In this document: piece after piece, positions 1,962-35,676 of the stretch
Numbering within the stretch: position 1 is the stretch's first letter
Layout: the number at the start of each line of letters is the position of its first letter
NCBI GenBank assembly: GCA_003034855.1
Contig: PZKD01000076.1
Location: 1 to 64,000, forward strand
Source: an archaeon SCG-AAA382B04
GTDB lineage: Archaea; Halobacteriota; Methanonatronarchaeia; Methanonatronarchaeales; Methanonatronarchaeaceae
Direction: 5' to 3'
Length of the DNA stretch: 64,000 bases
Program-made: the position numbers and the translations under genes
Notes under the pieces: generated by a model
What the model was told of the DNA's origin: nothing
Seen by the model: the letters and a program-made list of their open reading frames with translations, nothing else
The model's database searches: none

Positions 1962-1997
1962 CTATATGTAAATTGTTTTTTCAATAAACTAAATGCT

Positions 1998-2029
1998 TCA
2001 CCAAATATTGTTTTTAACATATTTGGTGA
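1998..2029. repeat. 11-bp perfect inverted repeat upstream of the small coiled-coil gene
   Basis: TCACCAAATAT (1998-2008) and ATATTTGGTGA (2019-2029) form a perfect stem around a 10-base T-rich loop. It lies between the start of the minus-strand coiled-coil gene and the left end of the IS element. It may be an operator or a hairpin that attracted insertion. The other IS605-type left end in this window (33298) lacks it, so it is probably not part of the element. Confidence 0.55.
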
Positions 2030-2034
2030 GAAAT

Positions 2035-2073
<39 letters not shown>

Positions 2074-2122
2074 CACCGTAACCTTTTTATGCATAGGTTG
2101 ATGTAATATATGTAGAACCAAT

Positions 2123-2554
2123 ATGAGATATGACCTAAAATCATCGTCACATTCAGTGTATAGTCTGAACTATCACTTGATTTTAGTAGTCAAGTATAGA
2201 AGAAAGATATTCACAAATCAAGGGATAATAGACGAATTGAAAGAGAGAACAAGAAATATAGCAAAGAACTATGATATACAAATAGCCAACCAAGAAGTTG
2301 ATAAAGACCATATGCATATCTTATTTTCTTCAAAACCAACATCTAACCTAACAAAGTTCATAAATGCTCTGAAGACAGGGACAAGTAAATCTATACGACA
2401 CAGATTTGATGTAGAGGATAAACTTTGGAATAATGTGTTTTGGTCAGACAGTTATTGCTTGATAACCACAGGTGAAGTAACCCTTGGCCAACTCAAAAAA
2501 TATGTTGAAAGTCAAGGTGAAGATAATGCAACTAACACAAAAAATAAAGATTGA
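2123..2554 (+). CDS. tnpA: IS200/IS605 Y1 (HUH) transposase TnpA
   Basis: 143 residues, full length for the family. The HUH motif is HMH at about residues 63-65 (DHMHILFS), and the nucleophilic Tyr is in QLKKYVESQ near residue 127. Known family enzymes excise and insert one DNA strand, recognising subterminal hairpins rather than inverted repeats, and act as dimers. The ATG follows the left-end hairpin by about 54 bases, and the 3' end overlaps the tnpB start by 29 bases. The reading frame is intact, so the protein could still act on its own element and, in trans, on the IscB element, whose ends look alike. Confidence 0.93.
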   Translation: MRYDLKSSSHSVYSLNYHLILVVKYRRKIFTNQGIIDELKERTRNIAKNYDIQIANQEVDKDHMHILFSSKPTSNLTKFINALKTGTSKSIRHRFDVEDKLWNNVFWSDSYCLITTGEVTLGQLKKYVESQGEDNATNTKNKD

Positions 2555-3834
2555 GCCAACACAAGAACAGGAAGAGGTTCTCACTTCTTTGTCTGAGGTG
2601 TGTAGGTTACTCTATAATTTTTCGCTTGAAGAGAGAATAGAAGATTGGAAGAAAAACAAAGAAAAGCCAGAGGAAGACAGAAACTATATTACATACACTA
2701 ACCAGCAGAATAAGTTGCCAGAGTTGAAAGAGGAATATCCCAAATACAATTGGGTGTATTCTAAGGTTTTACAAATGACTCTAAAGAAGCTGGACGCCAA
2801 TTACAAGTCCTTCTTCTTCCTTTGGAAAAAAGGAGACGAAAAAGCGAGACCACCGAGATATAAAGGCAGTAACTATTTCGCCACTTTGTGCTATAACCAA
2901 TCTGGGTTCGAGATAAAAGAAGGAGAAATAAAGTTTTCTCACAACCACCCAAATAAAGTAGAGCTATCTTTTGACGTTCCAAACAAGTTTGGTTTAGAGG
3001 AAAAAAACATTAAGCAAGTCGAAATCTTTAGGGATGAACTCAAAGAAGAATACTATATATCAGTTACCTATAAAGAAGAAACACCAGAGCATAAGGACAA
3101 TGGACTCTACCAAGCATTTGATTTAGGAGTTACCAAACACACAGGAGTAAATATGGATGGAAAGTTTGTTGAGTTCAACAACCCAAGACCAGATAAGTAT
3201 TGGCAACCAAAAATAAGAGAAGTTCAATCAAAAAGAGACAGATGTAAAAAAGGAAGCAATAGATGGAAATGGTATAACAGGAAATTACGAAAGATGCAGA
3301 GAAAGATCGCTAACCAAATGAAGGATTGGCAGCACAAGACAAGTAGAAAAATAGTTGAGAACACTAAAGCGAATACGATAGTAGTTGGAGACTTGTAGTT
3401 GGAGACTTAAACACTAAAAATATGGCCCAGAACAACAAGAATGCAAAAGGATTGAACAGAAGTTTACAAAACACAGGCACAGTTGGTAGATTCGTTAGAT
3501 TTCTAACCTACAAGGCAGAGAACTTGTAGGTAAGAAGGTAATAGAAATCAACGAAGCAAACACTACCAAAAGATGCTGTGTCTGTGGAAAGAAACAAGAA
3601 ATGCCACTACATAAAAGAACCTATAAATGTGATTGTGGAAACGAAATCGACAGAGACAAGAATTCTGCTGTCAACATAATGAATCGTTTCCTATCACAAA
3701 AACGCTCTGTGAACGAGCAATCTTCCTTTATGGAAGATTTTCTGCGACAAACAGGTTTGGAATATGCCAACCAGCAAATGCCCAAACACTCGCAGGAAAC
3801 CCCCTCCTCACCGAACGAATGTGAGGTAAGGTAG
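2526..3834 (+). pseudogene. tnpB: TnpB RNA-guided nuclease, frameshifted
   Basis: The start is taken at the ATG at 2526 (MQLTQKIKIEPTQEQEE), overlapping tnpA. RuvC-I is AFDLGVTK. The first frame stops at 3398 because the 14 bases at 3381-3394 are repeated exactly at 3395-3408. Past that the original frame continues (NTKNMAQNN..., GRFVRFLTYKAENL) to a stop at 3527-3529. A second shift is then needed to reach LVGKKVIEINEANTTKRCCVC, the zinc ribbon and RuvC-III (CDCGNEIDRDKNSAVN). At the RuvC-II position the sequence is VVGDL, with Gly where many TnpBs have Glu. The nuclease is therefore broken, although its 3' region still encodes the probable guide-RNA scaffold. Confidence 0.88.
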
Positions 3835-31090: not shown

Positions 31091-32259
31091 CCTTCTACCT
31101 CAACTTTTCCTATACAGCTCAGAAAAATAGCGGCATATTCTGGTATTTCTTTAATTTCGTCTTTCTCTATCTTTATTTTTTTATTCATTAAGGTTGTTTC
31201 GTAATTGTCTTTTGAATATATTTTAACGGAATCTTCTTCAAATACTACCGCATTGACGAAGGGGTTGAATTGCTCGATTTCAGTGATGGATAAAGGGGTA
31301 ACTCTAAATCCGGTTCCACCATGGAGAGAAGTGGGTAGTCTTATCAGTCTTTTTATATCGCTTGTAACTGGTTCATCTGCGTTTGCTTTTATTTGTTGTT
31401 TTGCTTCTTCTATCAATTGTTCCCAAAAAGATTTCGGAAGACCTCTTGCTATATCTAATTGTCCATTTTTTTTGATTCTATCTAAAGTTTCTTCTCTTTC
31501 TATAGATCTATATATCCTTTTTGCGGTTTTTTCTCCTACTCCATTATAACTAGTTAATTTGTTTATTGCGTCTTTTTTTTCTTTAGAAGCTATTTCCGAG
31601 AGTATGTTGTTAAATAGGTAATATTTAATTCTATTGTTCCAATTAGTGCTTTTAGAGGAAAGGTAAGGTATTTTTGCTCCTTTTTTCTTTTTTTCTTTTA
31701 TCAATGACTGAGTTCCTCTCCCCAGTATGTAATCAATTATTTCTCTTCTCTCTTGACTGTTAAGATCCAAGAAGCCTTCTTCTCTAACATGAATATGGTA
31801 ACCTCTTCCACCTGAAAAAACTAATTCAAGTTCATCTCTGTCAATTCCAAAATCATCAATTAAAAAATCAAATAAGAGATGCATAGTTTCTTCTTTCACT
31901 TTTTTTAGCATTTCTTGATAAGTAAGGTTCTTTGCGCCAACTAGATGATCTGCATCCAAATCAAAAACTAAATCAGCTGCTTTCCATTCTTTCTCTTCCA
32001 TAATGGGGGCGCTTGGTCGTTCATAGTAAGCTGAAGAAAAATAAACATGCACAGGAATAATTGATTGGAGATAAGATTGGAGTTGTTGTTTGGTTGAAAA
32101 CGATTTATGTCTTTTCATCACCGTTTTTTCGGGAAAATCTTTATTTAAAGGAATAAAACCCCACTCTCTATTACTAAGTGATGGAGGTGTTTTCAGTTGA
32201 TGATTTGAATAATATTTCCCAAACTTTTCTTCCAGAAACTTTTTAGTTCTCAGCCTCAT
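31084..32259 (-). CDS. priS: DNA primase small (catalytic) subunit
   Basis: 391 residues, an archaeo-eukaryotic primase. The catalytic acidic motif is DLVFDLDADHL (about residues 93-103), the nucleotide-binding SGGRGYHIHV lies near 150 and the third motif HGGTGFRVTPL near 305. A helical insertion with LTSYNGVGEKTAKRIYRSIE looks like a helix-hairpin-helix and is an extra compared with short PriS. It overlaps priL by 17 bases. Confidence 0.95.
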   Translation of the reverse strand: MRLRTKKFLEEKFGKYYSNHQLKTPPSLSNREWGFIPLNKDFPEKTVMKRHKSFSTKQQLQSYLQSIIPVHVYFSSAYYERPSAPIMEEKEWKAADLVFDLDADHLVGAKNLTYQEMLKKVKEETMHLLFDFLIDDFGIDRDELELVFSGGRGYHIHVREEGFLDLNSQERREIIDYILGRGTQSLIKEKKKKGAKIPYLSSKSTNWNNRIKYYLFNNILSEIASKEKKDAINKLTSYNGVGEKTAKRIYRSIEREETLDRIKKNGQLDIARGLPKSFWEQLIEEAKQQIKANADEPVTSDIKRLIRLPTSLHGGTGFRVTPLSITEIEQFNPFVNAVVFEEDSVKIYSKDNYETTLMNKKIKIEKDEIKEIPEYAAIFLSCIGKVEVEGW

Positions 32260-33292
32260 CTTTTTCCTCTGATTTTACCCTCCATTCATAATATCCAAGT
32301 GGATGAGAAACCTTTTCACATCTCCATTCATCGCTTACACAAAGCCCATAAGTTTTTAGGGTGGAGCAGGATGGCGGTTTATATTGATCCTGAGGTTTAT
32401 TCCCACCTATATGCCCTATTTGGTATCTTGTTGTTTCTTCATCAAAATCCGGAGCCACCTCAAATAAATCAATTATTTCATCTTCAGACATTCCTATGTT
32501 AAGTAAAAAGGAGACCAGAGTGAAACGTGCAGTGTGCGAAATATTTTGGCTTTTTTGGACCTTTCCTAATAGGGTTTTGATGCAGGGAGGGAATAACTCT
32601 TCCTCAATAATTCCCTCTATATCAGTTTGGAAAGATGCTTTTTTCTTCTCAAGAGCACTTTTTATCTCTTGAATTGGTTGAGTAAGTTTCTCACAAATCT
32701 CTTTCGGAACTTCTACAGGTAAATTGTTCTCTATTTTCCTTCTAACTCCTTCTTGTAATATTCTCTCAAAATCATCCCTAGTAAGAGACACTTTACCTTT
32801 CTCTATAGTTTGATTCACGAGTTTCCATTTTTTTTCGTTTAGATTTGTTGTGAGCTTTATATAATCTGTAAAATGTAAGTTAAATCCTCCCTCTTCCTTT
32901 AACTTAACTGAATCTATTCCTATACCTCTTGCTACATTGATTATTTGCTCTGTTGGTTCAGTTTTAATTCTTTTCTCAAAGGCTTTTGATTCTGCTAAAG
33001 AATATCTTTTTATTAAATATCTATCGTTTATACAGGATATGAGAATTCTGCTTAGTGGATATGAATAAAACTCCGTGTGTGGTTGAATATTTGTTTCGGT
33101 TATAAAAAGAGGGATTATTCCCTGATTTAGTGATTCTATAATCCTTTTTTTAGCTCTGGTTCTCGCTGAACTAAAGGTTTTTTCCTCAACTAAATCTTCA
33201 GTGGTTGTGTTTGACTTTTCAACATATTTTTTGGCCTTTTTGAGAAATGGATATCTTGCAAGTTCTTGATCCATTTTTTGTTTATCTATCAT
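32243..33292 (-). CDS. priL: DNA primase large subunit
   Basis: 349 residues. The C-terminal iron-sulfur domain keeps four Cys: PPCIKTLL, PPSCSTLKTYGLC and WRCEKVSHPLGYYEW, expected to bind a [4Fe-4S] cluster. The N-terminal helical domain (YPFLKKAKKYVEKSN, YPLSRILISCINDRYLIKRY) binds PriS. The start ATG lies only 5 bases inside the flank of the IscB element, so the upstream pcna-priL junction has been split by that insertion. Confidence 0.93.
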   Translation of the reverse strand: MIDKQKMDQELARYPFLKKAKKYVEKSNTTTEDLVEEKTFSSARTRAKKRIIESLNQGIIPLFITETNIQPHTEFYSYPLSRILISCINDRYLIKRYSLAESKAFEKRIKTEPTEQIINVARGIGIDSVKLKEEGGFNLHFTDYIKLTTNLNEKKWKLVNQTIEKGKVSLTRDDFERILQEGVRRKIENNLPVEVPKEICEKLTQPIQEIKSALEKKKASFQTDIEGIIEEELFPPCIKTLLGKVQKSQNISHTARFTLVSFLLNIGMSEDEIIDLFEVAPDFDEETTRYQIGHIGGNKPQDQYKPPSCSTLKTYGLCVSDEWRCEKVSHPLGYYEWRVKSEEKDEAEN

Positions 33293-33303
33293 TTTCGAGA
33301 AGA

Positions 33304-33336
33304 CCCCTCCCTCACGACTGTAGGGAGTTAGGTGGG
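33304..33336 (+). repeat. IscB element left-end hairpin
   Basis: CTCCCT and AGGGAG pair around CACGACTGT, flanked by CCC/GGGG with a small internal bulge. It resembles the hairpin at 2035-2069, including the following GGGGAATGAAT (GGGGGATGAAT there). It lies between the iscB stop and the priL start. Confidence 0.65.
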
Positions 33337-33382
33337 GAATGAATTGAAAGGGGTGTTAGCCGTTGGTGGTTTTCTTTGGAAA

Positions 33383-34597
33383 TCATAGTGAAAACTGAAG
33401 TCCTGCACCATATTTGAGCAAACTAACTTCTTTGATAGAGGAGTTCACTTTTTCTCCCCACCGATTAACTAACCTCACCCATTTGCCATAGTTGAATACT
33501 CCTTTAACACTATGAACGAGACCCTTTTTCTCTACCTCTACCAAATCTCCAGGCTGAAGGTCGTATCTTTCTCTTCTAATGCTTCTACCATAGCCCTTTC
33601 TGTTTGTTTGTATTAACCTGTTGTTTCTACGGTTCTGCTCTACAATATATGGTTCTGCTCTTTCTTGGTTTTTCCCGCCAGCAATTATAAAGGCATCGTT
33701 AATGTGAGATTTCTCTAAACCAAGCTCTATTCGCTTCTTCTTGGTAATGTGTCCAAAAGTGTGATTGCAACCCAACTCGTTAACTATCTTCCACCTCACT
33801 TGGTTCATAAAGGCTGTTTCTTTTAGTGTATTTTCAGCTTTTTCTTGGACTTTTGGATGTCCAAATTCCTCCGCCGTCTGGTCACTCTTCTCTTGATTAC
33901 ATTTATGACAGCTGATAGCTAAGTTGGACACTCTATCCGTTCCACCTCTAGACTTGGGAACGATGTGCTCCACCTCCAAAGGAACACCTCCCTTACCACA
34001 GTAAGCACACTCGTAGTCAAACTTCTCTAAGAGGTAGTTCTTGATGTTGTATTCTTTTAGTGTTCCTTGCTGGTATTCTTTTCCACATATCTCAGGGTTC
34101 TGCATCTTTTGTTGATCAAACTTAGCTACCTCCATCACTACCTCATCAATAGGCAAAATCTCCTTGAGTTTCTCAACTAGCTTGATGTGGGTGTTCTTCT
34201 TGTGTTTAATGGAGGGTGCCAACCAATCTTCTTCACTTCTGTTGTCAAATCTTGGTTTCCTGTACCTAGTATTCCTGCTTCTCCTGTTCTTGCGGTACTT
34301 CATTCTTTGCTCTAGCTTTCTGGAAATGTCATCTCTCAGTTCCATCTCACCAGCTATCAGTTCTTTGTTCTCTGTAACCACTGAAAACCCTACTTTTGAG
34401 TAACCAGCGTCGATTCCTAGAGTGGTTTTTTCTCTGTTCTTTTTTCCCTTGATTTTGTAGTTCAGCTGAATGGTGAAAGGCATTCTTTCCACTACTTCTG
34501 CCTTTCCCTTCTCCAATAAGTGCCTAGCCTTAGCTGGCTTTGTAGGCATCAATGGTTCTCCGCTTCTATCCTGAACAAACACTTTTTGGTTACTCAT
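33383..34597 (-). CDS. iscB: IscB RNA-guided endonuclease
   Basis: 404 residues, a full-length IscB (relative of Cas9). The N-terminal PLMP domain reads [20 protein letters not shown]. Ruv[17 protein letters not shown] has the catalytic Asp near residue 63, and the Arg-rich bridge helix is [15 protein letters not shown]. Ruv[12 protein letters not shown] holds Glu. The HNH domain (CAYCGKGG...[14 protein letters not shown]...[10 protein letters not shown]) keeps both Cys pairs and catalytic His. RuvC-III is [11 protein letters not shown] with His and Asp. The C-terminal domain after about residue 320 is expected to read the target-adjacent motif. No catalytic residue is missing. It is oriented like pcna and priL, so it can be co-transcribed with them. 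Confidence 0.95.
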
Positions 34598-34621
34598 TTT
34601 TGTTTTTTGTTTTTTGTTTGG

Positions 34622-34935
34622 CAGTTTTTAGTGCCGAGGTCTTTTGGCCTCACCTTACCAAGGGTGAGTTAGTTCCCATCGCCAATGTTGGGGCAGGCAC
34701 AGGACAGGTGATGTTGCACAGCCTGGGGAATAACACTATGAGGTCGTCCACTATGGTTTCCAAAGCCCAGTGGCTTGGGAGGCACCCACAAGGTGTATGT
34801 CAAACACTCAGTCCCAAACGTAGCTCATTTGCCACTTCCCTAGAGTGACATCACTCAGGCTAATCTCCCACCCCTCTACGGAGCTTTTTCAAGCCCCCTT
34901 CCTCAGCCCGAAAAGGCTTAGGGAGAGGTAGTTGA
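34622..34935 (-). ncRNA. IscB omegaRNA (HEARO-like RNA)
   Basis: The roughly 300 bases upstream of iscB hold no ORF but are G/C-richer than the genome and full of pairing segments: AGCCTTTTCGGGCT, GAGTGATGTCACTC, AAGCCACTGGGCTT, GGTGAGGCC with AAAGACCTC, and GGCACTAAAAACTGCC near the 3' end. The layout and several segments resemble HEARO RNA, the IscB omegaRNA. On the minus strand the RNA runs toward iscB, and its 5' guide would be taken from DNA beyond 34935, the pcna coding sequence. The exact ends and fold need modelling. Three TTTTTTG repeats fill the gap between RNA and iscB. Confidence 0.85.
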
Positions 34936-35676
34936 CTCTGACTCTATTCTTGGTGCCAATAAGTACTCTACTTCTCCATTTTCATCTACAATATTGAAAT
35001 TTATTTTTACTGGGTAATCAGTTCCTAGTCTTATTTTTGTTTCTGAAGCTTTTTTTATTGATTTGCTCATATCAGCTAAGTAATCTAAAGAAAAAATTGA
35101 TCTTACATCCTCGCTTGTTTCTATGTTAATTAATTGGCTTTCATCTAGTTCCATTTTAACTGAATCGTTATCTCCTTCAGCTGTTATTATAAACTTGTCA
35201 TCTTTTGTGGAAAATACTAAATAATCACTTACTTTTTCTGATGCTCTAACTGCTTTTCTAATTTTGTTTCCTTCAAGAACTATCCTGGCTGGTAAATCCA
35301 AATCAGGGACTTTTGGCTCTTGTTGAATTGTAGAAGGATCTAATAAGGAGATTTTGTAATCAAATCCAGAAACTTTTATTGAAAGTTGGTTGCCTTCTTC
35401 GCTTTGCATTTCAATTTCATCACCCATTGATGCTACACTCAAGATATCTTCTAATCTGTTTAAGTCAAATCCAATAGTCATTTCTTCGTCGACATGGAAT
35501 TCTTCGAAACCTTCTTTTTTTAGTTTAAACATCACCATCGCTACATTCGCTGGATCAGCTGATACTGAGCTTATGCCTTCTTGGTTGATGTTTAATTTTA
35601 TTTCATCTACTAGTCTTGAAATCGATTCAATTGAATCCTTAAAACTTCCTGCATTAATTTTTGCTTCAAAAGACAT
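34918..35676 (-). CDS. pcn: DNA polymerase sliding clamp PCNA
   Basis: 252 residues. KDSIESISRLVDEIKLNIN near the N-terminus, the interdomain loop LLDPSTIQQEPKVPDLDLPARI and C-terminal VEYLLAPRIES are typical of archaeal PCNA. The C-terminus ends TTSP after RIESES, longer than most, because the last five codons and the stop lie inside the right end of the IscB element (34918-34935). The clamp core is intact. It heads the chain that once ran into priL. Confidence 0.95.
   Translation of the reverse strand: MSFEAKINAGSFKDSIESISRLVDEIKLNINQEGISSVSADPANVAMVMFKLKKEGFEEFHVDEEMTIGFDLNRLEDILSVASMGDEIEMQSEEGNQLSIKVSGFDYKISLLDPSTIQQEPKVPDLDLPARIVLEGNKIRKAVRASEKVSDYLVFSTKDDKFIITAEGDNDSVKMELDESQLINIETSEDVRSIFSLDYLADMSKSIKKASETKIRLGTDYPVKINFNIVDENGEVEYLLAPRIESESTTSP

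Follow-up and report, generated by a model that had tools for sequence, protein, structure and literature searches.

What is the 404-residue open reading frame that stands between the replisome genes pcna and priL of an archaeon, does the region upstream of it encode its guide RNA, and how did both come to lie there? We analysed a stretch of 64,000 nucleotides (the window) within contig C89 of the source genome, SCG-AAA382B04 (G000; 1.42 Mb in 132 contigs). The host is a methanogen related to Methanohalarchaeum, and the only genome of the same family among those searched was that of Ca. Methanohalarchaeum thermophilum HMET1 (G001; Methanonatronarchaeia). In our reading, to which we give a probability of roughly 0.8, the locus is a 1651-bp ISC-type transposon (IS200/IS605 superfamily) that has no transposase of its own and encodes an OMEGA system. 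Its features, and those of the related IsrB loci, are collected in Table 1.

Table 1. Features of the IscB element, its flanking genes and the IsrB loci of the same genome
Feature	Position	Strand	Basis or remark
Whole ISC-type element, 1651 bp, GTCAAC...GATAG	33286..34936	-	Copy comparison, restored flanking genes
IscB, 404 aa	33383..34597	-	ATG start, intact ORF, RuvC and HNH catalytic residues kept
omegaRNA scaffold, HEARO model positions 1-211	34668..34936	-	23 bits here, sister copies 42-55; comparative structure
Predicted guide GCACCAAGAATAGAGTCAGA, 20 nt	34937..34956	-	Encoded by pcna 3' end; about 17 nt pair in OgeuIscB structure
Predicted TAM / target motif ATAAA, host DNA	33281..33285	-	14/14 readable copies; gives TAA of restored pcna stop
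Right-end subterminal hairpin region and element tip	33286..33343	-	TTCAT...TTCTC...AG layout recurs in other copies
pcna	34918..35676	-	Last codons (STTSP and stop) supplied by element; otherwise protein ends IESE*
priL, likely native start MDQELARY	32243..33274	-	Longer ORF from 33292 begins inside element end
IsrB-like gene, full 342-aa ORF	C1:3658-5030 (L007/L124)		HEARO upstream; right flank ATGA
IsrB-like gene	C45:1-1209 (L006/L114)		Without HNH; HEARO upstream
IsrB-like gene	C56:105442-106309 (L008/L109)		Without HNH; HEARO upstream

The reading frame encodes an intact IscB

The open reading frame encodes IscB, a member of the family of RNA-guided DNA-cutting enzymes from which Cas9 arose. 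It matched the NCBIfam model for guided IscB (NF040563) with 392.3 bits (E=1.4e-117), far above the curated cutoff of 175, and the Pfam domains RRXRR (E=5.6e-65) and HNH (E=9.9e-13), and it also matched solved IscB structures by sequence. The RuvC residues D63, E156, H298, and D301 and the HNH residue H211 are all kept; their counterparts in OgeuIscB are D61, E193, H340, and D343 in RuvC and H247 in HNH (PMC9640706). The AlphaFold model has moderate confidence (pLDDT of 73.7), and its top match in the PDB is the IscB structure 8csz (E=1.4e-24). The 404-residue IscB of the original prediction, which had been made from the letters of the window, is thus borne out by profile matches, fold, and catalytic positions, none of which has been lost.

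A divergent omegaRNA lies upstream of iscB

A structured omegaRNA, recognizable by the HEARO covariance model, had been proposed directly upstream of the gene. HEARO (RF02033) aligns there over its full length, but its 23 bits fall short of the gathering score of 83, and an Rfam search of the whole window at the gathering score gave no match. Sister copies from this genome and HMET1 scored 54.9, 42.5, and 42.1 bits against HEARO (E=1.3e-8 to 1.6e-5), also below the gathering score; the source genome has 12 HEARO matches, and the 2 that exceed the threshold both adjoin IsrB reading frames. Both this genome and HMET1 contain many copies of the omegaRNA-type sequence of the window.

The single-sequence folding energy of the upstream region is not exceptional compared with shuffled sequences (z=-1.06), and the structural claim therefore rests on comparison of the copies. 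In an alignment of 16 copies, 95.9% of consensus-structure cells pair, versus 38 to 52% with the partners slid, figures that lean in favor of the structure because it was derived from the same alignment. Compensatory changes are repeated in one helix (columns 265 to 271 with 315 to 320); the cells with double changes exceed those in shuffles (26 versus 12.8), whereas the pairs with double changes do not (6 versus 5.6). Judged from these comparisons, the region is best regarded as a real and conserved, if divergent, HEARO/omegaRNA: homology and the comparative fold agree with the original prediction, whereas its own folding energy and the Rfam cutoff do not.

The window copy and a few others have the lowest HEARO scores of the family, and every other IscB copy in this genome and HMET1 is frameshifted, interrupted, or truncated, as would be expected if the window copy were an OMEGA system that, although its insertion is recent, had lost the function of its omegaRNA or protein and was heading toward the decay of its relatives. 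We consider this unlikely, given that the window reading frame, the only intact and full-length iscB in its genome, keeps every catalytic residue and that the conserved RNA core is retained in the 16-copy alignment.

The element is inserted in the pcna stop codon

All copies share the left end GTCAAC and differ in the sequence before it, and position 1 of the HEARO model falls on the same base. Two copies on contigs C78 and C111, both with a broken IscB, agree at 1587 of 1593 positions (99.6%) between GTCAAC and ...AAGATAAAA, whereas their sequences beyond these bounds are unrelated. The C78 copy has inserted exactly where another element ends (left flank ...TTCTCAACATATAAG), and the cut must therefore lie between AAG and ATAAA. 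Right ends before ATGATAG or before AGATAAA were also considered and dropped; the nested insertion (L064) and the PCNA and PriL frames fit ...AG/ATAAA.

With these ends, the empty site of the window reads ...AGAATAGAGTCAGA directly followed by ATAAACAAAAAATGGATCAAG. Joining the flanks lets PCNA end in ...LLAPRIESE* and PriL start with MDQELARYPFL, indicating that the pcna stop codon is the insertion site; the insertion has made PCNA five residues longer (STTSP). In HMET1, pcna ends in IESE* with priL directly next to it and no insert. Joined in the same way, the flanks of HMET1 locus L059 restore a helix-turn-helix (HTH) reading frame, and those of L067 a plausible stop. Exact ends, several copies at different loci, and an empty site without target duplication characterize this mobile multicopy family as ISC transposons. 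The bounds proposed at first, 33298 to 34935, were therefore nearly right, and the place between two replisome genes was described correctly, but it is best read as one insertion.

A meaning of the pcna-priL location beyond this one insertion finds no support, since the site is empty in HMET1, the nearest relative. The intact reading frame, in the same direction as its two neighbors, could suggest a domesticated, replication-linked host gene, an IscB that the pcna-priL operon retains because it serves a cellular function; the empty site in HMET1, the exact mobile-element ends of the repeated element in which the gene lies, and the location of its relatives at other loci (none at pcna in HMET1) make this highly improbable.

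The predicted guide and likely TAM can be read from the flanks

In IscB systems, the guide is located 5' of the scaffold (PMC9640706), and in the family described here it is this left flank that varies from copy to copy beside a constant scaffold. The predicted guide of the window element is accordingly the 3' end of pcna, and its predicted target is the insert-free pcna-priL junction. On the other side, all 14 copies whose right end is readable are flanked by ATAAA, a word that occupies 0.37% of positions in the window; the 14 copies do not amount to 14 independent tests, since related copies could share the flank by descent. That ATAAA belongs to the target follows from the nested insertion and from the pcna stop and L059 frame that joining the flanks restores. 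OrufIscB uses an NTAAA TAM, of which ATAAA is the best as measured (PMC13180657), and we predict that ATAAA serves as the TAM of the window IscB. Strains with an insert-free site are predicted to read GAGTCAGAATAAAC. In the source genome itself, a search for a second copy of the empty pcna target found no exact match, only matches with two or three mismatches.

Weak matches to Cas9d, Cas9, and PtuB models, mostly over the shared HNH/RuvC region, and weak HNH-region matches in PADLOC could suggest a CRISPR-type (II-D Cas9-like) or other HNH defense protein in place of a transposon OMEGA nuclease. The model matches fall well short of the curated cutoffs (66 bits for Cas9d, where 375 are required), and the guides are the host flanks of each insertion; we regard this reading as very improbable.

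Proposed mode of retention and mobilization

How the ISC-type transposon would be transcribed, form an RNP, recognize its TAM, cut DNA, and be retained is suggested by the known biology of OMEGA systems. Transcription through pcna would give one RNA in which a 5' guide, made of the last pcna codons, is joined to the HEARO scaffold; IscB would bind this omegaRNA, and the complex would cut element-free alleles (...CACCAAGAATAGAGTCAGA, then ATAAA). Repair from the filled copy would restore the insertion, such that the element would be copied back and protected from loss. Because its guide can be read, its TAM predicted as ATAAA, and its natural target reconstructed, this archaeal IscB makes the retention hypothesis testable at a natural site.

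No Y1 transposase was found inside the element, and three Y1 transposase genes are present elsewhere in the genome. Few HEARO nucleases lie near a TnpA (PMC9755519), and the absence of an own transposase therefore bears on autonomy only. The two near-identical copies on C78 and C111 share the same broken IscB, and recent movement thus did not require the IscB of the element itself. The window also contains, at 1990 to 3830, a Y1 transposase gene (2123 to 2554) and, after it, a TnpB with a frame break near 3398. A hairpin upstream of this Y1 gene resembles the right end of the IscB element in reversed orientation, which makes the Y1 transposase a possible mobilizer of the IscB element, but the flank there is TTTTAAC, not TTTAT.

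Solo omegaRNAs and mini-elements

Four complete solo omegaRNA elements of 392 to 480 bp occur in the source genome (L067, L070, L074, and L078), and three further solo omegaRNAs (L072, L076, and L082) are interrupted by contig ends. Each has a different guide, and the flank is ATAAA where readable. We tentatively suggest that the single intact IscB may act as a shared nuclease for these guide-only elements, retaining many insertions in trans, although we would not yet bet on it. Standalone omegaRNAs reportedly have a bacterial precedent in the work of Altae-Tran et al. in 2021. A 1.4-Mb genome with one intact nuclease and several solo omegaRNAs offers a compact case in which a shared nuclease of guide-only elements can be studied. 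Contigs C35, C43, C44, and C46 of the source genome end inside omegaRNA copies; the copy count is hence likely too low, and the true number is probably higher.

Two further copies are of irregular form. A truncated omegaRNA-IscB piece (L068; C1:19252 of the source genome) lies within a coding region and is flanked by apparent GAAAG repeats, not ATAAA. In HMET1, a second element that also begins with GTCAACTAC breaks up the HNH region of an IscB copy (L059:2564, on contig C2).

HMET1 carries at least 40 copies of a mini-element of about 320 bp (L171 to L199), which runs from GTGACTTCC to CACTAAG with a conserved body and an ATAAA-type flank. Searched against Rfam, it gave no omegaRNA-type match, and its consensus structure is weak; consensus energies are of limited use as a strand test, as the reverse strand of a known omegaRNA also scores well. 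It is possibly an undescribed family of RNA-bearing mini-elements. We counted 174 occurrences of the right-end motif TTCTCNACCACTAAGATAAA in HMET1 (0 for the reversed control) versus 14 in the source genome (3 for the control; L142 to L168), and these counts relative to the reversed control indicate that several mini-element families share the right end. Some elements (L141, L146, L153, L154, L181, L185, and L187) seem to be single-hairpin remnants, and several such hairpin elements measure about 54 to 56 bp from the left-end motif to the ATAAA flank.

Comparison with known systems

The closest protein relatives of the window IscB are the IscB pseudogenes of HMET1 (L059 and L066/L061), with 75 to 82% identity in pieces. 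They share the ends of the window element and its ATAAA flank, whereas their reading frames are interrupted or frameshifted. The original prediction held a full archaeal IscB to be unusual, a view that we do not uphold: archaeal members were known before (PMC9755519), ISC transposons are called "bacterial and archaeal" in a title by Kapitonov et al. (cited in PMC9755519 and PMC6452270), and our sequence search found relatives in metagenome-assembled genomes of Methanolliviera, GoM-Arc1 Methanosarcinales, Borrarchaeota, Heimdallarchaeota, and Hodarchaeota, as well as in bacteria.

The IsrB elements on C1, C45, and C56 of the same genome resemble the window system in a homologous RuvC part and in a HEARO RNA directly upstream (71.6 to 86.9 bits, two of the three exceeding the Rfam gathering score) but lack an HNH match and differ at the right end. 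The C1 element, the one copy examined, ends in ...TATAAG/ATGAG. Measured IsrB TAMs are of the NTG or NTGA type (PMC9581776), which the ATGA flank of this copy fits, in contrast to the ATAAA of the IscB element.

Compared with OgeuIscB and OrufIscB, the window system has the same PLMP-RuvC-bridge helix-HNH-RuvC layout, catalytic residues, and upstream omegaRNA with a 5' guide, and its flank is of the NTAAA type, as for OrufIscB. It differs in its shorter protein (404 versus about 490 residues), its divergent omegaRNA below the Rfam cutoff, its archaeal host, and its form as a stand-alone element without a transposase. The system is an IscB by its protein, a divergent HEARO by its RNA, and an OMEGA system by its layout, and to this already known kind the present analysis adds an exact element anatomy and a testable natural target.
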